A stretch of 64,000 nt of DNA. Source: Methanomassiliicoccales archaeon. Lineage in GTDB: Archaea; Thermoplasmatota; Thermoplasmata; Methanomassiliicoccales; UBA472. Numbering within the stretch: the stretch's first letter is position 1; each line of letters begins with the position of its first letter. Position numbers and translations under genes: made by a program. This document shows, one piece after another, positions 20,725-48,350 of the stretch. The stretch is from contig JAPKYK010000002.1 in assembly GCA_026394395.1 (NCBI GenBank), forward strand, positions 1-64,000, read 5' to 3'. A model generated the notes under the pieces. The model saw only the letters and a program-made list of their open reading frames with translations, did not search any database and was not told where the DNA came from.

Positions 20725-21630
20725 TTAAACTTTAGGCTGCTGCGTTCTTTCCAGAGCCCTTTCCGCCGCTAGCACGGTGTTGTGCATGAGCATGACTATG
20801 GTCATGGGCCCCACTCCCCCGGGCACCGGGGTGATGGCCGCGGCCTTCTCTTTCACCGCCTCGAAGTCCACGTCCCCTACGAAACGGTAGCCTTTGGAGA
20901 AGCTCTGGTCGTCGATCCGGTTCGAACCGACGTCGATGACCACCGCTCCCTCCTTCACCATGTCGGCCTTGATGAAGTTGGCCTTTCCGATAGCGGATAT
21001 CAGGATGTCCGCCTGGGAGGTGATCCCCTTCAGGTCCTTGGTGTGCGAATGGCAGACCGTGACCGTGGCGTCGGCCCCCTCGCCCTTCTGCATGAGTATG
21101 GCGGCCATAGGCTTTCCTACGATGTTGCTGCGGCCCACGATGACCACGTGCTTGCCCGCCGTGTGATAACCGTAACTGTTCAGCATCACCTGGATGCCGT
21201 GCGGGGTGGCCGGAAGGAAACCGTCGCCCTCGCCGATGAGCATCTTGCCCACGTTCACTGGATGGAAGGCGTCCACGTCCTTGTCCGGATCGATGGCCTG
21301 GACCACCTTGCTGACGTCGATGTGCCCGGGCACCGGCATCTGCACCAGTATGCCATTGACCTGGGGATCGACGTTCAGCTCAGCGATGAGGCGCAGTAGT
21401 TCCTTCTCGGAAAGGTCCGCCGGTTTGTGTAGAGTCAGCGAATGCAGCCCCAGGTCCAGGCAGGCCTTGCCCTTCATCCTCACGTAGGAGGCGGAGGCCG
21501 GGTCGTCGCCCACCATTATGACCGCCAGTCCCGGGGTCACCCCTTTTTTCTGCAGCTCGGCGATCCTGACGGTCAGGTCCTTCCTTATCTGGTCCGCGAC
21601 CTGCTTTCCCTCGATTAACTTGGCACCCAT
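20725..21630 (-). CDS. folD: methylene-H4F dehydrogenase/cyclohydrolase FolD
   Basis: 301 residues. Interconverts methylene-, methenyl- and 10-formyl-tetrahydrofolate. The catalytic YVRMKGKAC (Tyr49, Lys53) and the C-terminal PGGVGPMTIVML motif are present, with the Rossmann segment VIVGRSNIVGKP near residue 160. It lies divergent from fhs, sharing a 102-base intergenic region in which each gene has its own TATA-like box (CATTATTAATCC on this strand near 21660-21669). An H4F rather than methanopterin route is implied. Confidence 0.94.
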   Translation of the reverse strand: MGAKLIEGKQVADQIRKDLTVRIAELQKKGVTPGLAVIMVGDDPASASYVRMKGKACLDLGLHSLTLHKPADLSEKELLRLIAELNVDPQVNGILVQMPVPGHIDVSKVVQAIDPDKDVDAFHPVNVGKMLIGEGDGFLPATPHGIQVMLNSYGYHTAGKHVVIVGRSNIVGKPMAAILMQKGEGADATVTVCHSHTKDLKGITSQADILISAIGKANFIKADMVKEGAVVIDVGSNRIDDQSFSKGYRFVGDVDFEAVKEKAAAITPVPGGVGPMTIVMLMHNTVLAAERALERTQQPKV

Positions 21631-21732
21631 TTCCAGCCCGGCTCTTGATGGATAGCCGGATTAATAATGATTGCCGGCCGGGGTGAAAATGCTTTATCCT
21701 TTGGCTGGATATCCGAAGCACCAAGGTGGCGC

Positions 21733-23406
21733 ATGAAGAGCAACATCGAGATCGCCCAGGAGGCCAAGGTCCTTCCCATCGATAAGATCGCGGCCAAGCT
21801 GGACATATCCTCAGACGAGATCATTCCGTACGGTCGGTACATGGCCAAGGTCCCATTGGCCGTCCTTCGCCGCTTCGACGGCCATAAGAACGGCAAGCTC
21901 ATCCTCACCACCGCCATAACCCCCACTCCGGCCGGCGAGGGGAAGACCGTCACCACCATCGGGTTGGTGCAGGCATTGGGGTATCAAGGGCGTGATGTCA
22001 TGGGAGCCATACGCGAGCCGTCCATCGGCCCTACGTTCGGTCTCAAGGGCGGCGCGACCGGCGGAGGCCTCTCCCAGGTCTACCCCATGTGGGACATCGA
22101 CCTGCACTTCACCGGCGACATCCACGCCGTGGGCGCGGCGCACAACCTTCTCTCGGCGATACTAGAGAACCATATCGCCAAGGGCAACAAGCTGAACATC
22201 GACCCGACGCGCATCTTCCTGAAGAAGGCCATCGACATGAACTGCCGCGAGCTGCGCAACATCGTCGTCGGTCTCGGGGGCCGCAAGGAAGGGGGCGTGC
22301 CGCACGAGAGCGGCTTCATTATTACGGTTGCCTCAGAGATCAGCGCCATACTGGCGCTCACCACCTCCTTGAAGGACCTCAAGGAGCGGCTCGGCCGCAT
22401 CATCGTCGGCTATACCAATGACAACCGCCCGGTGGAGGCCCGGGAGCTGGAGTGCGTGGGGGCCATGGCCACCCTGCTCAAGGATGCCATAAACCCCAAC
22501 CTAGTGCAGACGCTGGAGGGACAGCCCTTCTTCATACACGGGTCCCCGTTCGCCAACATCGCCCACGGTAACAGTTCCATCATCGCCACCAAGTACGCTC
22601 TCAAGCTATCGGACTACGTGGTCACGGAGGCCGGTTTCGGCGCCGACCTGGGGGCAGAGAAGTTCTTCGACATCGTCTGCCGCAACAACGGCTTCCGGCC
22701 CGACTGCGTGGTGCTGGTCTGCTCCATCAAGGCCCTGAAGATGCATGGCGGCTGCCCCCTGAAGGCCATCGGCTGCGAGGACCTGAAGACCTTGAAGGCC
22801 GGCTTCCCCAACCTGGACAAGCACATCGAGAACATACACCGTTTCGGCCTTCCGTTGGTCGTGGCCATCAACCACTTCCAGGCCGACACCGAGGCGGAGA
22901 TCGCCGCCGTCCGGGAGCACTGCCGGGAGCTCGGTGTCCGCTGCGCCCTCTCCGACGTTTTCGCCCGGGGAGGGGAAGGCGGGCAGGAGCTGGCCGACCA
23001 GGTCGTGGATGCCTTGGAAACGGAGAAGACCGATTTCCGCTTCCTTTACGAGCTGGACCAACCGCTGAAGGAGAAGATCAGGATAATCGCCACCGAGATG
23101 TACGGGGCCAAGCACGTGGAGTACGAGACCGCGGCCCAAAGGCACCTCAAGACCATCGAGGACTCCGGGATGGGGAACCTGATGGTCTGCATGGCCAAGA
23201 CGCAGTTCTCGCTCACAGACAAGCCGGAGATGAAGGGCGCCCCCCGGGACTGGGAACTGACGGTCAGGGAGATATTCGTCTCCGCTGGCGCCGGTTTCGT
23301 GGTCCCCATATGCGGGCGCATCATGCTCATCCCCGGACTACCGTCGCAGCCTGCGGCCAAGAACATAGACATCGACGACGAGGGCAAGATCACCGGTCTG
23401 TACTGA
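21733..23406 (+). CDS. fhs: formate-tetrahydrofolate ligase
   Basis: 557 residues, full length. Joins formate to H4F with ATP to give 10-formyl-H4F, the entry step of the bacterial methyl branch. The nucleotide loop TPTPAGEGKTVTT is at residues 63-75 and the family block REPSIGPTFGLKGGATGGG follows. ATG 21733 has AAGGTGG as ribosome site; a TATA-like GCTTTATCC at 21691-21699 gives a short leader. Upstream frame to 21667 has no start signal. Its 3' end overlaps the convergent DUF3786 gene by 17 bases. Confidence 0.95.
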   Translation: MKSNIEIAQEAKVLPIDKIAAKLDISSDEIIPYGRYMAKVPLAVLRRFDGHKNGKLILTTAITPTPAGEGKTVTTIGLVQALGYQGRDVMGAIREPSIGPTFGLKGGATGGGLSQVYPMWDIDLHFTGDIHAVGAAHNLLSAILENHIAKGNKLNIDPTRIFLKKAIDMNCRELRNIVVGLGGRKEGGVPHESGFIITVASEISAILALTTSLKDLKERLGRIIVGYTNDNRPVEARELECVGAMATLLKDAINPNLVQTLEGQPFFIHGSPFANIAHGNSSIIATKYALKLSDYVVTEAGFGADLGAEKFFDIVCRNNGFRPDCVVLVCSIKALKMHGGCPLKAIGCEDLKTLKAGFPNLDKHIENIHRFGLPLVVAINHFQADTEAEIAAVREHCRELGVRCALSDVFARGGEGGQELADQVVDALETEKTDFRFLYELDQPLKEKIRIIATEMYGAKHVEYETAAQRHLKTIEDSGMGNLMVCMAKTQFSLTDKPEMKGAPRDWELTVREIFVSAGAGFVVPICGRIMLIPGLPSQPAAKNIDIDDEGKITGLY

Positions 23407-37987: not shown

Positions 37988-38010
37988 CGCCTGAGAGGAT
38001 TCGCTTGGGG

Positions 38011-39924
38011 ATGAGTCCCCAGATAACCTTCCATCCCAAGGGCCGGACCGTGGAGGTCCCACAGGGCACTAACCTCCTCGAGGCGGCCATACTGGCCGGC
38101 GTAGAGGTGAACAGCGCCTGCGCCGGAAAAGGTGTCTGCGGACGCTGCCGCGTGGTGGTCGAAGGGCCGGTCGATTCATCGCCTTCCAACAAGATCACCG
38201 AGGAGGAGTGGGCCACCGGATACCGCCTAGCCTGCCTTTCCAAGGTCACCGGGGACTGCACCGTATTCGTCCCTGAGGAGAGCCAGCTGCAACCCATGAA
38301 CATCGTAGGCGGCAAGGTGAAGAACGAACTGAAGGCACTTTCCCCGTTGGTAAAAGGAAAATACGTTCAGATGCGGAAGCCGACCCTGCAGGACAACGAC
38401 GGGGACCTGGAGAGGCTCTACAAGGCCCTGGGCATGGAACCTGGGGCTCTCGGTTTTCCTCTTCCGCTGCTCAGGTCGCTGCCCCGGGTGGTGCGCGAGA
38501 GCGCCGGGGCCGTCACCGTGTTCCTCAACGGGGACAGGTTCGTGGACGTCCGTCCCTGGAACGCCCTCTCCCGGGCCTACGGCGTGGCCATCGACATCGG
38601 TACTACCACGGTAGCGATGCAGCTGGTGGACCTGAGCACCGGGGAGATGATCTCCCAGGTGTCCGATTACAACAAGCAGCTGATCTACGGGGAGGATGTA
38701 CTCACCCGCATCATGTTCGCCGAGGAGCAAGGTCTGGAACGCCTGCGCCACCTCATCGTTGACACACTGAATCACATGATCGCCCGACTGACCACCATCG
38801 GCGCCTGCGTCCCCAAGGGGAAGAAGGTCTGCGCCGAGGAGATAGTCGCCGTCATCGTGGCCGGGAACACGGTCATGATACACCTGCTCCTGGGTTTGGA
38901 CCCCAAGAACATCCGTCACGACCCGTACGTGGCCGTGACCAATCTTCCTCCGTCCTTCACCGCTGAGGATCTGGGGCTGAAGGTGAATTCCCTGGCCGCG
39001 GTGCACCTGGTGCCCGGACGGGCCAGCTACGTGGGCGGTGACGTCATCGCCGACGTCGTGGCCAGCGGCATGGCCGAGAGGGACGAGGTGTGCCTGCTCA
39101 TCGACGTGGGCACCAACGGCGAGGTCGTGCTGGGGAACAAGGAATGGCTGCTGTCCTGCTCGGCCTCCGCCGGCCCGGCCTTTGAGGGCGGGGAGGTGGT
39201 CCACGGCATGCGCGCCGGCAACGGCGCCATCGAGAAGGTCTCGCTGCGCGACGGCGTGCAGATCCAGACCATAGGCAACGACCGCCCCAAGGGCATCTGC
39301 GGCTCCGGCCTCATCGACCTGTTGGCCCAGCTCTTCATCACCAGCGTGCTGGACAAGAAGGGGCACCTGCAGGACTCCGAGCACGTGCGGGAAGGGGAGT
39401 ACGGCCGGGAGTTCGTGCTGGTCTACTCCAAGGACGCCCAGAAGGATGGGTATGACCTTCGTGCAACGGGAATGAGCTGCTGCCCTATTGACAAGGTGGA
39501 GAGGCGCCGGGACATCACCGTCACCGAGGCAGACATCGCCAACGTGATACGCACCAAGGCGGCCATGTACGCCGCGGCGGAGGTGCTGCTGGACACCGCC
39601 GGCATAACCTTCACCGACCTGGACCGGGTGTACATCGCCGGAGGTTTCGGTCACCACATCGACCTGGACAACGCCGTGGCCATCGGGCTGCTGCCTGATC
39701 TTCCGAGGGAGAGGTTCACCTTCCTGGGCAACGCCTCCCTGGACGGGGCCAAGTTATGCCTTCTCTCAGACGAGAGGAGGAAGGAGGCCATGCGGGTGCA
39801 CAAGGCCATGACCTATGTGGAGCTGTCGACGGACCAGCGCTTCTTCGACCGCTTCTCCTCGGCGTCCTTCCTGCCGCACACCGACCTAGACCGCTTCCCC
39901 TCGTTGAAACAGGTCAGAAGATGA
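38011..39924 (+). CDS. RACo-like ATP-dependent corrinoid protein activator
   Basis: 637 residues. N-terminal plant-type [2Fe-2S] domain with cysteines in the CX5CX2C pattern (CAGKGVCGRC, about residues 37-46) and a fourth near 75; then a linker and the ASKHA-type ATPase (AIDIGTTTVAMQLVDLSTGE near 190, LLIDVGTNGEVV near 365, and VYIAGGFGHHIDL near 540). This is the RACo layout of carbon-monoxide-using acetogens, which reduces Co(II) corrinoid back to Co(I). RamA of methanogens has C-terminal 4Fe-4S clusters instead. Located between purH and the CODH/ACS genes. Confidence 0.88.
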   Translation: MSPQITFHPKGRTVEVPQGTNLLEAAILAGVEVNSACAGKGVCGRCRVVVEGPVDSSPSNKITEEEWATGYRLACLSKVTGDCTVFVPEESQLQPMNIVGGKVKNELKALSPLVKGKYVQMRKPTLQDNDGDLERLYKALGMEPGALGFPLPLLRSLPRVVRESAGAVTVFLNGDRFVDVRPWNALSRAYGVAIDIGTTTVAMQLVDLSTGEMISQVSDYNKQLIYGEDVLTRIMFAEEQGLERLRHLIVDTLNHMIARLTTIGACVPKGKKVCAEEIVAVIVAGNTVMIHLLLGLDPKNIRHDPYVAVTNLPPSFTAEDLGLKVNSLAAVHLVPGRASYVGGDVIADVVASGMAERDEVCLLIDVGTNGEVVLGNKEWLLSCSASAGPAFEGGEVVHGMRAGNGAIEKVSLRDGVQIQTIGNDRPKGICGSGLIDLLAQLFITSVLDKKGHLQDSEHVREGEYGREFVLVYSKDAQKDGYDLRATGMSCCPIDKVERRRDITVTEADIANVIRTKAAMYAAAEVLLDTAGITFTDLDRVYIAGGFGHHIDLDNAVAIGLLPDLPRERFTFLGNASLDGAKLCLLSDERRKEAMRVHKAMTYVELSTDQRFFDRFSSASFLPHTDLDRFPSLKQVRR

Positions 39925-40782: not shown

Positions 40783-41814
40783 ATGGCCTGGAACTGTGCC
40801 GCCACCGGCATCGGGTCGCTGCCCCACAAAGATCCCGCAGAGGCAGTGGAACTGGTGCTCTCCCGCATGGAGGAGGTGCCGTATTGGCCTCAGCTTCCGT
40901 CGCTGGGGTTCGGGGAGAACATGTACGCCCAGTTCTCCACCCGCCTCCCGGGGGTCAAGGTGGACGCTCACTGGAAGCGCATCTCGGTGGACCTGGACGA
41001 TTACGACCCGGAAGAGTTCTACATCGCGGTGGTGTCCGAGGATGTGGGGCATTTCGCCCATGCCCCCCAGGACTTCCACGGGCTGTACGCCCTTTTGGCC
41101 GCTGTCAAAGGAAAGAGGTTCAAGGCAGTCAAGGGACAGGTGACCGGACCGGTGAGCGCCGGACTGCAGGTGCTGGACCAGAACGGGAAGCCGGCGCTGT
41201 ACGACGAAGCGTACGGCGAGATCATCCGCCGCAACCTGAACATGCAGGCTAAATGGCAGGTGGCTAAGCTGAAAGAGGTCACCGACCGCCCGTTGCTGTT
41301 CCTGGACGAGCCTTCGCTGACCCTCGTAGGCACTCCCTTCGTATCACTATCTCCGAAGCAGGTGGTGGACTGGATAGACGAGGTCCTGGACGGGGTGGAC
41401 GCGCTGAAAGGATTACACTGCTGCGGCAACACCGACTGGCCCCTGGTCCTCTCCACCAAAATCGATGTGCTGAGCTTCGACGCCTACAACTATGCGCACA
41501 CCGTCTCGCTGTTCCCTCAGGAGATCTCCGCCTTCCTGGAACGGGGCGGGGCCATCGCCTGGGGGCTCGTACCGAACATGGAGGAGCATATCGCCAAGGA
41601 GACGGTGGGAACGCTTCTGGGACGCTTCGAGAAGGCCTTGGACGAGCTCTCCCGCAAGGGCCTGGACCCCGAACTGGTGCTGGAGCGCTCACTGATCACC
41701 CCGCAGTGTGGGCTGGGCGGGTTGGACGTGGCTCAAGCGGAAAAGGTGCTCGAGCTCCTCAACGGCACTGTGGCGGCCGTCAGAGAACGATACGACCTGG
41801 GCGGGATGTCATGA
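40783..41814 (+). CDS. MetE-core (cobalamin-independent methionine synthase C-terminal type) protein
   Basis: 343 residues, only the catalytic barrel of MetE. The N-terminal TGIGSLPHKD and the zinc ligands GLHCCGN near residue 210 and TPQCGLGG near 305 are present, so a thiol acceptor such as homocysteine is likely. Short archaeal MetE relatives take the methyl group from a methyl-corrinoid rather than folate. It overlaps cooC by 4 bases, and the CODH/ACS corrinoid genes are next, so methyl-CdhDE is a plausible donor (inference). Confidence 0.82.
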   Translation: MAWNCAATGIGSLPHKDPAEAVELVLSRMEEVPYWPQLPSLGFGENMYAQFSTRLPGVKVDAHWKRISVDLDDYDPEEFYIAVVSEDVGHFAHAPQDFHGLYALLAAVKGKRFKAVKGQVTGPVSAGLQVLDQNGKPALYDEAYGEIIRRNLNMQAKWQVAKLKEVTDRPLLFLDEPSLTLVGTPFVSLSPKQVVDWIDEVLDGVDALKGLHCCGNTDWPLVLSTKIDVLSFDAYNYAHTVSLFPQEISAFLERGGAIAWGLVPNMEEHIAKETVGTLLGRFEKALDELSRKGLDPELVLERSLITPQCGLGGLDVAQAEKVLELLNGTVAAVRERYDLGGMS

Positions 41815-42569
41815 GCTTCCTCCTGGCCGTGGCCGGGAAGGGAGGCGTGGGCAAGAGCACCATCTCCTCGCTGCTGGTGCGTTCGCTATCACAGAAGGGA
41901 AAGGTACTGGCGGTGGACGCCGACCCCAACAGCAACCTCGGACTGAAATTGGGCATCGAGGTGCCCGGCACGGTGGGTGAGATCCGTGAAGGTCTATTGT
42001 CCAAAGGAGGCGAGCCGCCCCGGGACATGAGCAAACAGGAATACCTCAAGCTCAAGCTCAGGCAGATATTGGCCGAGGGCGAGTCCGCCGACCTCCTGAC
42101 CATGGGCCGCCCGGAGGGTCCGGGCTGCTACTGCTACGTAAACAATCTTCTGCGGGTCTTCGTGGACCAGCTCATGGACGATTATCAGTACGTGGTGATC
42201 GACAACGAGGCGGGCATGGAGCACCTGTCGCGGCGGACGGCGAGGGACATAGACCTGCTCCTGCTGGTCTCCGACGCCACCCAGGTGGGAATATCCACCG
42301 CCCGGCGCCTTTCGGACCTGGCCGACGAACTGGGGCTGAAGGTGAAAAGGAAGCTGTTGCTGGTGAACGGCGTCCGGGACGGCCAGGAAACGGCGGTGTC
42401 GACCCTTGCCCAGGCCACTGGCCTGTCCTTCATGATCACGCACGAGGACGAGGCGGTGCGAACGGCCGCTTTGACAGGGGCCTTTTTGAAAGGCGATGGG
42501 CTACTGACGAAAGAGCTCGACCCGGTCATTCGGAGCCTTTCCCCTTCCAATAGGCGAAAAGAAGGGTGA
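41811..42569 (+). CDS. cooC: CooC/AcsF-type nickel insertion ATPase
   Basis: 252 residues, MinD/ParA-like ATPase. Deviant P-loop GKGGVGKST at residues 9-17 and the CooC-specific CxC (C106, C108 in GPGCYCYVNNLLR) that binds nickel between two subunits. These ATPases mature the nickel sites of CO dehydrogenase or acetyl-CoA synthase. ATG 41811 overlaps the preceding stop. Its last 44 bases overlap the convergent FN3 gene. Confidence 0.88.
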   Translation: MSFLLAVAGKGGVGKSTISSLLVRSLSQKGKVLAVDADPNSNLGLKLGIEVPGTVGEIREGLLSKGGEPPRDMSKQEYLKLKLRQILAEGESADLLTMGRPEGPGCYCYVNNLLRVFVDQLMDDYQYVVIDNEAGMEHLSRRTARDIDLLLLVSDATQVGISTARRLSDLADELGLKVKRKLLLVNGVRDGQETAVSTLAQATGLSFMITHEDEAVRTAALTGAFLKGDGLLTKELDPVIRSLSPSNRRKEG

Positions 42570-43048: not shown

Positions 43049-44374
43049 TCAACTCAGGGACCTCAGGAACTTGGGGATCCCTGACGATTCCTTTGGACCG
43101 ACGATCACCTGCAGCCCGGTGGCCTCGTTCAGCTTCACGCTCATCCTGGCCACCATGCCGGGTATGACCAGCACGCCCTTGTTCGAGCGCCCCTTGGCCC
43201 CGCTGGCCTCCAAGGCCTTCTTCACCGTCTCGGCGGTGAGCTTGCCGGCGGAGAACGACGTCAGTACGGAAAGCCCTTCGGTGTCCACCACCTGCAGCCA
43301 CACCGGTATCTTGCTCTTCTCGATGTCCGAGAGGACGGTGAAGTAGGTGAGGGAGAAGTTGGTGGTGAAGAGCAGCGGCGCGTCCGGACCGGGGTTGTTC
43401 ACCGGGTAGAGGTCCGCCTTCACCTGGATGGGGACCTGCGGGTCGGTGAATATGTTCTGGCGCAGCACCAACAGCGGCAGGACCTGCGAGGCCGGAAGCT
43501 CTTCGAACGTTAGAACGCTGCCGTACTTCATGACCGCGGTCATGGCCATGAGCATACCGTCCTTCCCGATGGGCATGCTCAGGTAGATAGGGTAACCGAG
43601 GCCGCGGAAGGTCTTGCGTATGGCGCTGCGACGGATGATGGTGCATCTCTCCAGCATCTCCTTCATGTTCCCCGGCAAAGGGTCCAGCACCAGGTCTTCA
43701 ATACCCTCTTTGCGCGCCATCTCGACCATATCGGCCAGCTGTCCGAGGTCATCGGAGCTCAGGACCAGGGGGCACCCGGACGCCTTGGCCGCCGCGGCCA
43801 TCTCCTTGACGTTGTTAGCGTTGGCGCCGTGCAGCAAGGGCCGGCGCTCCTTGAACTTGGTCGCCGCCGCGGCCATCACAGTCGCGTCCTGGCAGCACAG
43901 GATCATAGGCCAGTCAGTAAGCTTGCCGACAATGTCGACGGCCTGAACGAACCTATCCGCGTTTCCGGTGCGACATTCCACCTCCACCGCATCCAGCTTG
44001 AGTACCTGGCCCACCCTCTCGAAGCGCAGGGAGCGGGCCTGTTCGACCTTCTCCTCTATCTTCTCCGCGCTGAGGTCGTCCGTCACCCGCAGAGCGAAGG
44101 CCGTGGGATGGAAGAAGCGCTTGTCATGCCGGTACAGCTCGGTCTCGTCGCCCATGTCCACCACGTTCTTCCCAGCGCCGAAGCGCACCAGACGGATGGG
44201 CGGGGCCGAGGAGCTGGCCAGGGCGTTCCTTCCCGCTTCGCTAAGATAAGGGCAGTCGTCCAGCTTGGCCTTGCTGTTGGCCAGCTGCATGGCGAACGCC
44301 AGGCAAGTAGGGTACTTGCACTCGCCGCAGTTCTTCTTGGGCAGGTGCTTGAAGATCTCGATGGCCGTGGGCAT
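43049..44374 (-). CDS. cdhE: corrinoid Fe-S protein large subunit (CdhE/AcsC)
   Basis: 441 residues. The N-terminal [4Fe-4S] motif C16/C19/C24/C41 (NCGECKYPTC...DCPYLS) is followed by the TIM barrel and a C-terminal cobamide-binding domain (about 330-441, including NFSLTYFTVLSDIE and a Gly-rich end). It carries the methyl group between AcsE and acetyl-CoA synthase. Its start codon shares the last base of the cdhD stop. Confidence 0.93.
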   Translation of the reverse strand: MPTAIEIFKHLPKKNCGECKYPTCLAFAMQLANSKAKLDDCPYLSEAGRNALASSSAPPIRLVRFGAGKNVVDMGDETELYRHDKRFFHPTAFALRVTDDLSAEKIEEKVEQARSLRFERVGQVLKLDAVEVECRTGNADRFVQAVDIVGKLTDWPMILCCQDATVMAAAATKFKERRPLLHGANANNVKEMAAAAKASGCPLVLSSDDLGQLADMVEMARKEGIEDLVLDPLPGNMKEMLERCTIIRRSAIRKTFRGLGYPIYLSMPIGKDGMLMAMTAVMKYGSVLTFEELPASQVLPLLVLRQNIFTDPQVPIQVKADLYPVNNPGPDAPLLFTTNFSLTYFTVLSDIEKSKIPVWLQVVDTEGLSVLTSFSAGKLTAETVKKALEASGAKGRSNKGVLVIPGMVARMSVKLNEATGLQVIVGPKESSGIPKFLRSLS

Positions 44375-45324
44375 CAGCCCTCACCCCCCAGTCCGAAGGC
44401 GGCCTGGCGTGCGAGTTCCAAGGCCCCCGGATGCCCGAGGATCAGGATGTCCGCCCCGGACAGCATGGCGGCCAGGGCGGTGGTGGCTTCCCACCATATG
44501 CCCCGCTCCAGCGTGTCGCCGGCCTTGGGCACCTCGTCCGTAGCCTCCCGGGCCTTCCAGGCCGAGGTGCAGTCGCAGATCATGGGCACCTGCAGCATGC
44601 TGTCGCCGGCCAGCGCCGAGATCCTTATGCGCTCGTTGACGGAATAGGAATATTCTAGGCCCATGCCGAGGGCGGCCATGAGCGGGTCGACCACGATGTC
44701 GCCCTTCTTGACCCCGAAGTCGGTGAGCAGGATGACTATCTGCTTGGCCAGGTTGATGTCCAAGTTCGAGAAACCGATGACCGCGTGGCCGTTGGCCACG
44801 GCCGCGGCCGCCGCCGACTTGTAAACGGTCTCCGTTGCCTGACCTAGCAGCAACCGTTCCCCTTTGGTCCGCTCCCCCACCCTCTCCAGCACCTTGGCGT
44901 CCTTCTCTTCGTGCCCGCTGCCGTAGACGATGAGCGGCAGCTCCATCGCTTTCAGCACGGCCATTACCGTCTCCGCGGCGCTCTCCGGGGAGGCATCCTG
45001 GCCTTCCGGGTTGGTGGAGACGAGGTGCAGGCAAATGAGGTCGGCACCGCGGACCGCCCAGGACCTGGCCCAGCTGACCGGGTCCTTGGCGTCGCTGCCG
45101 AAGGCCTCCTGGACCGCTTTAGGGACGTCGTCCAGGGCATCGGCCACCATTCCGGCCAGGGCCACCTTGCGCCGCGTGCCGTCCTCGAAGGACAGGAAAG
45201 GGGCGCCCTTATTGCCGCCCAATCGCACCGGTCTTCGCGAACCGCCCTTCTCCTGGAAGCTTCCGAGCTCCAGCTCGCCAATCGAACCCGTCCACTTCTC
45301 CTTCGGCACCGGCACTTGCGTCAT
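44374..45324 (-). CDS. cdhD: corrinoid Fe-S protein small subunit (CdhD/AcsD)
   Basis: 316 residues, close to bacterial AcsD length; methanogen CdhD is usually longer. TIM barrel that forms the heterodimer with CdhE and cradles the corrinoid. Recognised by IGELELGS, WARSWAVRGADLICLHLVSTNPEGQ and the VVDPLMAALGMGLEYSYSVNERIR region. Follows acsB by 9 bases and overlaps cdhE by one base: acsB-cdhD-cdhE form one operon. Confidence 0.92.
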   Translation of the reverse strand: MTQVPVPKEKWTGSIGELELGSFQEKGGSRRPVRLGGNKGAPFLSFEDGTRRKVALAGMVADALDDVPKAVQEAFGSDAKDPVSWARSWAVRGADLICLHLVSTNPEGQDASPESAAETVMAVLKAMELPLIVYGSGHEEKDAKVLERVGERTKGERLLLGQATETVYKSAAAAAVANGHAVIGFSNLDINLAKQIVILLTDFGVKKGDIVVDPLMAALGMGLEYSYSVNERIRISALAGDSMLQVPMICDCTSAWKAREATDEVPKAGDTLERGIWWEATTALAAMLSGADILILGHPGALELARQAAFGLGGEG

Positions 45325-45333
45325 CCATACACC

Positions 45334-48306
45334 TCAAAGCAACGGCGGCATCCTCAGCGCGGGATGGTCCACCTTGATCATCCAGTTCATCAGGCCCTCG
45401 GCGTCGGTGACGCTGGTCTCGTCCGCCACCTGGTCCAGGAAGCCTGGCGTTCCCAATTCCCTGGCCCTATTAATAAGCTCTTCCCTCATGGACTCCTTGA
45501 GCGCGGAGGGCATCCAGGCGATGCGCAGGAACCCGCCGTCCCCGGAGATGAACTTCCTGGAGATCAGGTAGCGGCGGCCGACCCCGATGAACCCCGGGGT
45601 CTGCTTGCCCCCGCCGATGCTCCCGGCCAAGGTGGAGAACTTCATGCCCACGGGGGTCATCTCGGCGAACTCCCGGTTGACGACGATGACCGATTGCATG
45701 TCCGGGCTCATGGCCACGATGACCTCGAAGCAGCCGCAGGAGGTCATGGGGTCCTCCATCATGCTGTAGGCGCAGAAGCGGGTGAGCTTCCCCCGGGTGA
45801 GGGCGGTCACCGCCTCGTTCACCCCTTTCCACGATCCCTTGGTTTCGTCCTCGACCTCCCTCTTGGCTATAGGCTGGTTCGGTCCGGATGGCACGATCTC
45901 CTTGCCGGTCTTGGCGTCCAGCCAGTTTATCGCTCCGCACAGCCCAGGCCGCTCCGGGGTTATCACGCACACGTGGTCCGGGGCGAAGGACTGGCACATG
46001 AGGCACGAATAGAAGGTGTCCACGCTCTCGTCGGTCAGCCCGGCCATACGCTCCTCCCTCTCCTGGTACGACTTCATTGCCTCCGGTAACCGCTGTTCCA
46101 GCTCCTTGTCGTCGGTGACGATGGTCACCTGGACCCGCGAGACGATGTTGCCGAACTCCTCCTTGAGCTTGGTGACCAGGATACGGCCCAAGTGCTCCAG
46201 GCGGAACCCGGCGCGGTAGGCCTTCTTACTGATACGCACCCAGTTCATGTTGCGCTGACCGGTGTGCCACACGCCCTCAGCGAAGTTCAGGTACAGGTGG
46301 ATGCGCCGCTCCATGACCGACTCGAAGTCCGCCTGCATGCGCTTGCCGAAAACGTCCACCAGGATGGCCAATGGGGACTGGGACCCCTCGGGCAGCTGGT
46401 CCACCTCCGGACCGATGACCCTGATCTCACCGTCCTTCACCTCCTCCTCCGGCCGGCTCTTCAGCAGCTCGAAGGCCGGGGTGCGCCCCCCTCCCGCCTC
46501 CAGATAAGTGTCCGGGCGGCGCACGGTCTCGCCCTCGAAGGCCGGGCCAAAAGGCACCGGGATGTCCACGACGGTAACGGCGGTGCGGATGTCCCGCGAT
46601 TCCAGGCCTCCCTGGAGCATGTCCGCCGGCTCCTTGTGGAACAGGAGGTCCGGTACGCCTTCAACGAACTGGTCCGTGACAATGGGGACATGATGTATCA
46701 GGGCGGCCAAGGCCAAGGAAGCCCGGGCGGCGTCCAGCGGTCCGTAGTGCAGCACGAAGGCCTTGGGCCGCTTGGCCAGGTAGGCGGACAAGCGCTCCGC
46801 GTCCCCCTTCTGCACCCCGCCGAAGGACAGCGCCGCTCTGGTCACGAAGTCCAGGGCGTGCACCAGCTGGGTGAAGTTGCCCAAGGGGTACAGCATCATG
46901 CCCAGCCCCATCTGCACCTCGTTCTCCTGCAGCACCCGGACCACCTCGTCCGCCGCCAGGACCAGCATGCCCCGGGCCTGCAGCTCGCGCACGGTGGTCA
47001 CCAGCTGCTTGTGGTCCTTAGGCATGCCCATCAGAACCGCCGCCCCGGGGATGGTGTCGTCCACGAAGGCTAGACCGAGCTCGCGCAGCACCTTGTCCGG
47101 GACAAAGCCTACGGTGGCCGTCCCGGTGTGCGGATCGCCGTCAAGGTAACGCAAGACTTCCAAGGCCTCGGCGCTCACCAGCGCCGCCTTTCCCGCCTCC
47201 AAGGCGTCCCCCAATCCTCGGCCCGAGGGCAACGCGGAATGCCTCTTGACCACATCCAGAAGTTCCGTCAGGGTGGTGATCTCCGCCCCGTCCCAACCGA
47301 AGATGCACGGAAGGCGGTACGCGGTCTCCGGGTATTCCACCGGGGCGTCACCCCTCCGTTCTATCGCAGAGAGCAAGGCCACCCTGGCCAGAGCGGTCAT
47401 GAGCTCCGCGCCCATGAATCCTATGGCGATGACCTGGGTGTTGCTGACCTGGGCCGGCGCCGGCGGATTGTAACGGTGGGGAAGCCCGCAGACCCACCTT
47501 CTCCTTTCGATCTCCCGGGCCAGCTCCTCCTCGTTAAATAACAGCGTTCCGCCGAACAGGTCCCGGCTGACGTTCACCAACAGCTCCCTGACCTTCCCTT
47601 CCATCGCCACGTTCCTGAGGACCACCGGGCAGCCCATGAGCACCTGCCATAGCGCCAGCCCCAGGTTCTCGGTCCTCAGTCCTATGGGCAGCTGTGTCGC
47701 CGGCATGCCCAGTTCCCTGGATAGCTCCCGGCGGGCCTGGTTGAAAGCGGCCAGCGTCACTGGGAGGTCCCCCTCGATCAAAGTTCTTACGCCTTCGATA
47801 TCCACTAAGCGCGAGGCGCTTCCGCGGTCCTCCATCATCAGACCCCGGCACACGCCTTCCCTAAGGTCCTGCCGCAGGGCTTCCAGCCCCTCGACCTCAT
47901 CCCGCCGGCCGTCCACGGCGTATCGGCAATAGGTGAGCATGAAGATCGCCAGGGCCTCGCGCAGGCAGAGCAGGAGGTCGTAGGCCTCCCCGGCCGGGAC
48001 CCCGTCCAGCGGGGCTAACAGACCGACCTGCTCCCAGGCGCGGCGCTCCCGCAGGGCCACAGGCTCGACGCCCGCGGCCTTGGCCAGGTCCCGTCCCAAG
48101 ATATCCATTCCGATGCCCAGGTCCGCCTTCCACAGGTCCTCCGGGCCCAAGACCTCAACCACTCGGCGCACCAGGTCCGAGATCCCCGTTCCGGATTCCA
48201 AATGCTTCACCGAGTCCAGGCAGCTCCGCCGCTCCTCTCGCAAGGTCGTGAGAAGGTCATGCGCCGTCAAGGGTCCGGACTGGATGGTGGGCTGGGTCAA
48301 AGGCAT
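45334..48306 (-). CDS. acsB: acetyl-CoA synthase AcsB, bacterial type, with long N-terminal extension
   Basis: 990 residues from ATG 48306 (1024 if read from 48408). All A-cluster ligands are present: C768, C771, C780, C790 for the cubane and C857-Gly-C859 for the distal nickel. Moorella AcsB has these at 506-528 and 595-597, a constant offset of 262, so the extra length is N-terminal. Methanogen CdhC lacks the Rossmann domain; this protein has it (from about residue 325), so it is bacterial type. The first 260 or so residues match nothing I know. ATG 48306 is favoured because it follows GGAGAG and a TATA box at 48343-48350. Confidence 0.9.
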   Translation of the reverse strand: MPLTQPTIQSGPLTAHDLLTTLREERRSCLDSVKHLESGTGISDLVRRVVEVLGPEDLWKADLGIGMDILGRDLAKAAGVEPVALRERRAWEQVGLLAPLDGVPAGEAYDLLLCLREALAIFMLTYCRYAVDGRRDEVEGLEALRQDLREGVCRGLMMEDRGSASRLVDIEGVRTLIEGDLPVTLAAFNQARRELSRELGMPATQLPIGLRTENLGLALWQVLMGCPVVLRNVAMEGKVRELLVNVSRDLFGGTLLFNEEELAREIERRRWVCGLPHRYNPPAPAQVSNTQVIAIGFMGAELMTALARVALLSAIERRGDAPVEYPETAYRLPCIFGWDGAEITTLTELLDVVKRHSALPSGRGLGDALEAGKAALVSAEALEVLRYLDGDPHTGTATVGFVPDKVLRELGLAFVDDTIPGAAVLMGMPKDHKQLVTTVRELQARGMLVLAADEVVRVLQENEVQMGLGMMLYPLGNFTQLVHALDFVTRAALSFGGVQKGDAERLSAYLAKRPKAFVLHYGPLDAARASLALAALIHHVPIVTDQFVEGVPDLLFHKEPADMLQGGLESRDIRTAVTVVDIPVPFGPAFEGETVRRPDTYLEAGGGRTPAFELLKSRPEEEVKDGEIRVIGPEVDQLPEGSQSPLAILVDVFGKRMQADFESVMERRIHLYLNFAEGVWHTGQRNMNWVRISKKAYRAGFRLEHLGRILVTKLKEEFGNIVSRVQVTIVTDDKELEQRLPEAMKSYQEREERMAGLTDESVDTFYSCLMCQSFAPDHVCVITPERPGLCGAINWLDAKTGKEIVPSGPNQPIAKREVEDETKGSWKGVNEAVTALTRGKLTRFCAYSMMEDPMTSCGCFEVIVAMSPDMQSVIVVNREFAEMTPVGMKFSTLAGSIGGGKQTPGFIGVGRRYLISRKFISGDGGFLRIAWMPSALKESMREELINRARELGTPGFLDQVADETSVTDAEGLMNWMIKVDHPALRMPPLL

Positions 48307-48342: not shown

Positions 48343-48350
48343 GATATAAA
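48343..48350 (-). promoter_or_regulatory. TATA box of the acsB-cdhDE operon
   Basis: TTTATATC on the minus strand. The expected start of transcription, about 27 bases on (near 48320), lies downstream of the possible ATG at 48330 and 14 bases before ATG 48306, which decides the start. Confidence 0.5.

Follow-up and report, generated by a model that had tools for sequence, protein, structure and literature searches.

The window, a stretch of 64,000 nucleotides from a Methanomassiliicoccales archaeon, carries a reverse-strand gene for acetyl-CoA synthase (ACS) with a long N-terminal extension, accompanied by CdhD, CdhE and two further conserved neighbours:

38005-39924 (+), AcsV-like corrinoid reductive activator, conserved neighbour (NF040756 score of 588 bits against a cut-off of 800)
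41811-42569 (+), CooC-like nickel-insertion ATPase, conserved neighbour (MinD/ParA-type; the name CooC comes from the context)
43049-44374 (-), CdhE, gamma subunit, corrinoid Fe-S protein (profile match and synteny)
44374-45324 (-), CdhD, delta subunit, downstream of ACS in the same operon (profile match and synteny)
45334-48306 (-), ACS of 990 aa with a putative pseudo-CODH remnant at its N-terminus; ATG 48330 is an alternative start
45334-46596 (-), ACS domains A2 and A3, residues 571-990 and stop (family match and alignment)
45730-46005 (-), A-cluster ligands C768, C771, C780, C790 and C857-G-C859 (alignment to Moorella AcsB)
46597-47418 (-), ACS domain A1, CODH-contacting and tunnel-bearing, residues 297-570 (PF18537)
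46714-46716 (-), L531, equivalent to the tunnel position A265 of Moorella (alignment)
46843-46845 (-), V488, equivalent to the tunnel position A222 of Moorella (alignment)
47419-47493 (-), linker GLPHRYxPPxP, residues 272-296 (comparison of congeners)
47494-47751 (-), remnant of the C-terminal Rossmann domain of CODH, residues 186-271, ending in ERRRW (hhalign, Foldseek)
47752-47955 (-), joint lacking the first CODH Rossmann domain, residues 118-185 (match to G406)
47956-48306 (-), helical N-terminal part, residues 1-117, a presumed remnant of the CODH helical domain (AF2 helices)
48343-48350 (-), TTTATATC, resembling a TATA box and lying some 36 nt upstream of ATG 48306, by eye

The ACS reading frame has no internal stops and is present as a single copy in a genome that is 99.85% complete. 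The start codon is either ATG 48306 or ATG 48330; shortly upstream of ATG 48306, inspection by eye showed a GGAG as well as AAATTTATAT, which is TATA-like. The gene order AcsV-UroD-CooC-CdhE-CdhD-ACS is common to all genera of family f1.

From residue 297 (Moorella residue 26) to its end the protein aligns with Moorella AcsB and is an ACS of the bacterial type, with the domains A1-A2-A3, the full set of A-cluster cysteines and the CGC motif. It matches NCBIfam NF040764 (ACS alpha/beta, bacterial type) with 889 bits over residues 299-989, above the cut-off, and the Pfam A1 domain PF18537 at residues 313-388; the methanogen CdhC, by contrast, has no A1. The Moorella residues C506, C509, C518, C528, C595, G596 and C597 correspond to C768, C771, C780, C790, C857, G858 and C859, all shifted by +262. 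A sequence-only reading of the same DNA had given exactly this shift and had called the protein bacterial rather than CdhC-like, and the alignment, the family score and the presence of A1 agree with it on both counts. Some ACS sequences of relatives are unusual at the same sites: that of G014 (L002 / L031) has Phe (CLMFQ) at the C509 position, by sequencing error or loss, that of G032 (L125:2899-5568 (-)) has an intein-splicing domain (Pfam PF14890) within the A-cluster motif TSC|CGC, and that of G412 (L149:908-4510 (-)) has an intein with a LAGLIDADG domain at an A-cluster Cys (SCSLC...N-CQSFAP), with a reading frame that is broken farther downstream. A highly divergent ACS on a long branch (33-34% identity; C. 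autoethanogenum ACS is the closest solved sequence) is found in G399 and other members of f2g11 (L126:2528-4567 (+)).

The addition of about 270 residues in front of the ACS core is genuine. It is open and collinear in nine congeners from the genus of the window, and the linker at residues 272-296 is its most conserved stretch within the genus. We found dN/dS values of 0.12-0.4 in the three main extension segments versus 0.06-0.16 for the ACS part, with synonymous sites close to saturation for the more distant pairs; the extension is under purifying selection that is weaker than on ACS. In-frame ATG and GTG codons within the extension might be taken to point to an annotation artefact, either a real start at about residue 260 or two genes erroneously joined, but nine independent genomes, the selection, the conserved linker and the TATA-like box upstream make such an artefact next to impossible. 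The retention of the frame in nine congeners with these dN/dS values renders a late start unlikely, as do the box and the GGAG, and the collinearity in nine genomes speaks against a sequencing error that joined a separate gene.

Searches of Pfam, NCBIfam and the PDB sequences with the extension on its own found nothing significant, and the initial impression had been that it resembles no known family; comparison with the sister genera revealed instead an eroded CO dehydrogenase (CODH) of the CooS/AcsA type. Its last 82 or so residues, together with the shared ERRRW motif, match the C-terminus of the fused CODHs described below (E 9e-9 in pairwise hhalign), and a match was also obtained with the pseudo-CODH of genus g3 (E 8e-10, likewise pairwise). 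Residues 118-271 of the window's genus (g1) match residues 105-258 of the extension of G406, a genome from a different family (E 1e-9); this G406 extension is partly eroded and in turn matches CODH in three collinear stretches: residues 25-100 with the CODH helical domain (E 6e-4), residues 133-150 weakly with CODH 464-481, the SGxVRGLxL stretch (E 0.1), and the C-terminal stretch with the CODH C-terminus (E 5e-7). Within residues 118-185, EGVCRGLMMED resembles SGxIRGIAL of CODH. Homology to the Ni-CODH fold, and with it the origin of residues ~118-271, is well supported. Residues 1-117 had no direct sequence match to CODH, and comparison of residues 1-185 with CODHs by local HMMER and hhalign gave only noise.

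An AF2 model of residues 1-305 (pLDDT 81, pTM 0.81; a full-length model from 5 sequences reached pLDDT 45) contains helices at residues 15-34, 40-53, 63-78, 85-93 and 107-132. With this model all 50 PDB matches listed by Foldseek were CODHs, at a modest best E of 3e-3 and mostly via the C-terminal ~105 residues (rmsd 2-3). Since 6t7j_A was the only chain among the matches listed to align over the whole length, with a TMq of 0.47 and an rmsd of 13.6, the assignment of the N-terminal part is suggestive; its position and predicted fold hint at a CODH origin for residues 1-117 as well. The description of the extension as helical is correct for its first half, and that of an extension free of Fe-S motifs is borne out: its five cysteines are scattered, and it lacks the regions that carry the catalytic Lys and His and the ligands of clusters B, C and D. 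Judged by its residues, the extension is a pseudo-CODH and not a CODH. The initial proposal of an unrelated helical domain, recruited to adjust the binding of CODH or CdhDE, could appeal to the lack of a family match for residues 1-262 and of sequence homologues for residues 1-117. It is nevertheless very improbable given the homology of the C-terminal 82 residues and the linker to fused CODH, the bridge via G406 and the Foldseek matches, and it is already disfavoured for residues ~118-271; a contact of the extension with CdhDE is conceivable all the same.

Recognizable by sequence, the extension is confined to the window's genus (9 genomes), as a survey of relatives showed; one weak match elsewhere in the phylum, in G281, was set aside because it has an internal TGA and is not the ACS gene. 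In other genera of the same family (G001, G006, G008 and G010) the orthologous ACS reading frame encodes 1364-1379 aa, with a full CODH of the CooS/AcsA type in front, and CODH-ACS fusions of 1362-1393 aa are found in other families of the phylum. In six genomes (G038, G063, G401, G192, G311 and G359) no CODH other than the fused one was found, an argument for the fusion being functional. In G032, G306, G393, G371 and G056 an unfused ACS gene is immediately preceded by a gene for CODH, which is likely the ancestral gene order, and at the same locus the CODH part has been wholly lost in G005, G009, G011 and other families. A different CODH remnant is present in f2g14 (E 8e-7). One and the same gene is found in all states: as adjacent genes, as a single-chain fusion, with a full-length pseudo-CODH devoid of clusters, with a remnant of 270 aa and without any CODH part. 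The window protein is not itself a single-chain CODH-ACS but probably an eroded derivative of one.

The ligands of the fused CODHs show different degrees of loss. All are present in g2, g6 and g7, whereas the nearly full-length fused CODH of g3 has largely lost the B- and D-cluster cysteines (G004 being a possible exception) as well as H261, C295 and K563, with C446, C476 and C526 kept; in G003, a member of g3, the first Rossmann domain is missing too. The fused CODH of G006 (g5, L043:5778-9869 (-)) is the only one found in that genome, yet has Arg for K563 and Gly for C294, and may represent an early stage of inactivation. The ACS tree places g3 with the fused g5 and g6 (100/100) but the window's genus with the unfused G005 and G011 (98/94), indicating that erosion occurred at least twice; these placements led us to reject family f1 as a single clade with one loss. 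In the CODH tree the g3 pseudo-CODHs fall on a long branch within the fused clade, and owing to such long branches the deeper branching order is unsure.

In the window's genome a single CODH, G000:C3, exceeds the family cut-off (674 bits versus 478). It is canonical, with its catalytic residues and the ligands of clusters B and C in place, and is complete apart from its D-cluster motif, C-X2-C-X5-C, a form designated type III in the classification of PMC6344411. This stand-alone CODH and the fused CODHs fall into different clades (100/100) and are 40% identical, and it is encoded apart from the ACS-complex genes. All genomes with an eroded domain that are at least 94% complete have a stand-alone CODH; in G018, which has the eroded domain and is 90% complete, none was found. 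No CODH was detectable in five genomes with an unfused ACS, namely G011 (L044:9953-12151 (+); one contig, 99% complete), G227, G414, G189 and G412.

The A1 domain of AcsB forms the face that contacts CODH and bears the CO tunnel. Among positions that are invariant in 16 CODH-coupled ACS sequences, 10 of 61 in A1 are changed in nine of the nine congeners versus 3 of 133 in A2 and A3 (Fisher p 0.0007, indicative only as the sequences are related). The same trend is seen in f2g14, in other unfused f2, in f3 and in G005 and G011, and is absent in g3. Two alanines of the CO tunnel are also replaced: the congeners have V, L or I at the A222 position and L or M at the A265 position, the latter being Ala in the ACS of Moorella, C. 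hydrogenoformans and C. autoethanogenum. Tunnel mutants engineered in Moorella ACS include A222L, A265M and A110C; the f2g14 ACS has A110C and A265L. The CODH-facing A1 has thus lost constraint, the two tunnel alanines included. Because Leu is the natural residue at the A222 position in the ACS of C. hydrogenoformans, these replacements do not establish closure of the tunnel, and a strong claim to that effect was weakened on this finding; C. autoethanogenum ACS is variable at several of the altered A1 sites. An ACS that does without substrate channelling, its tunnel narrowed or closed, its CODH half a dead cap and its CO taken from solution, with the erosion repeated in the phylum, is a possibility that we put forward tentatively.

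We consider it very probable that the extension is an eroded CODH left from a CODH-ACS fusion; in our preferred reading ACS has become uncoupled and the remnant would serve as a structural cap or a docking element. Adjacent acsA and acsB genes of an ancestor would have fused, placing CODH and ACS in one polypeptide; with a separate CooS-type CODH present, the fused CODH half may then have lost its metal ligands, next its first Rossmann domain and then most of the second. In the window's genus about 270 of about 650 residues would be left in front of A1, made up of helices, the CODH C-terminus and the linker. The ACS half, its A-cluster intact, should still make acetyl-CoA with CdhDE, and its CO source would be the stand-alone CODH, with transfer by diffusion or during transient docking and not through a built-in CODH-to-ACS tunnel. 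Most likely the remnant would be kept to cover or position the A1 face formerly buried against CODH. The suspected connection of the extension with the CODH contact is in this respect borne out.

The main rival to this capping role is an active docking module, in which the remnant recruits the stand-alone CooS, itself acting as the CODH partner that a heterodimer would otherwise lack, and allows local transfer of CO. CODHs are homodimers, the helical part and the C-terminus are among the pieces retained, the linker is strongly conserved and the stand-alone CODH accompanies the eroded domain in the more complete genomes, all in line with such a module; the distant clade and separate location of that CODH and the bulky residues in place of the two tunnel alanines nevertheless make it rather unlikely. 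More improbable still is a nearly functionless relic heading for the full loss seen in G005, G009, G011 and other families. Several relatives indeed live without any remnant at this locus and the extension evolves faster than ACS, but none of the main segments has a dN/dS close to 1, all being far lower, and nine genomes have an invariant core and linker with no stop or frameshift.

CODH-ACS, the textbook case of gas channelling, is among the oldest enzyme complexes. With the AcsA-AcsB complexes of Moorella and Carboxydothermus the window protein shares A1-A2-A3 and all A-cluster ligands, but in those complexes an active CODH forms a subunit of its own, whereas the window protein has an inactive CODH remnant covalently linked to ACS, and the gene for the functioning CODH lies elsewhere in the genome. 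The monofunctional ACS of C. hydrogenoformans can work apart from CODH and likewise has a residue other than Ala, namely Leu, at the A222 position, but has no N-terminal extension. The single-chain CODH-ACS of relatives (G001, G192, G038 and others) is the same gene with the same linker position, and within family f1 the same locus; it retains a complete CODH with its clusters, of which the window protein has kept no ligand. Methanogens offer another exchange of roles between CODH-derived sequence and A1, since in their CODH-ACS a CODH domain takes the place of A1 (PMC11474084), but CdhC has no A1, whereas the window protein combines A1 with an inactive piece of CODH in the ACS chain.

The range of gene states reveals under which circumstances coupling is required or dispensable. 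The fusions are natural single-chain CODH-ACS enzymes for biochemistry and work on CO2 fixation, and the altered A1 alanines are natural counterparts of tunnel mutants; if channelling has truly been given up, the relatives would form an evolutionary series that tests the purpose of the CODH-ACS tunnel. No description of a CODH-ACS fusion or remnant was found in the literature searched, which covers few subscription papers; Inoue et al. 2019 (PMC6344411) classify CODHs fused to other proteins in the supplement to their paper. Methylotrophic acetogenesis with acsA-E has been proposed for related Thermoplasmata (PMC11264602), in a paper that does not mention any fusion. The window also contains FolD and formate-tetrahydrofolate ligase (20725-21630 (-) and 21667-23406 (+)), so that this archaeal genome has an H4F methyl branch of the bacterial type.
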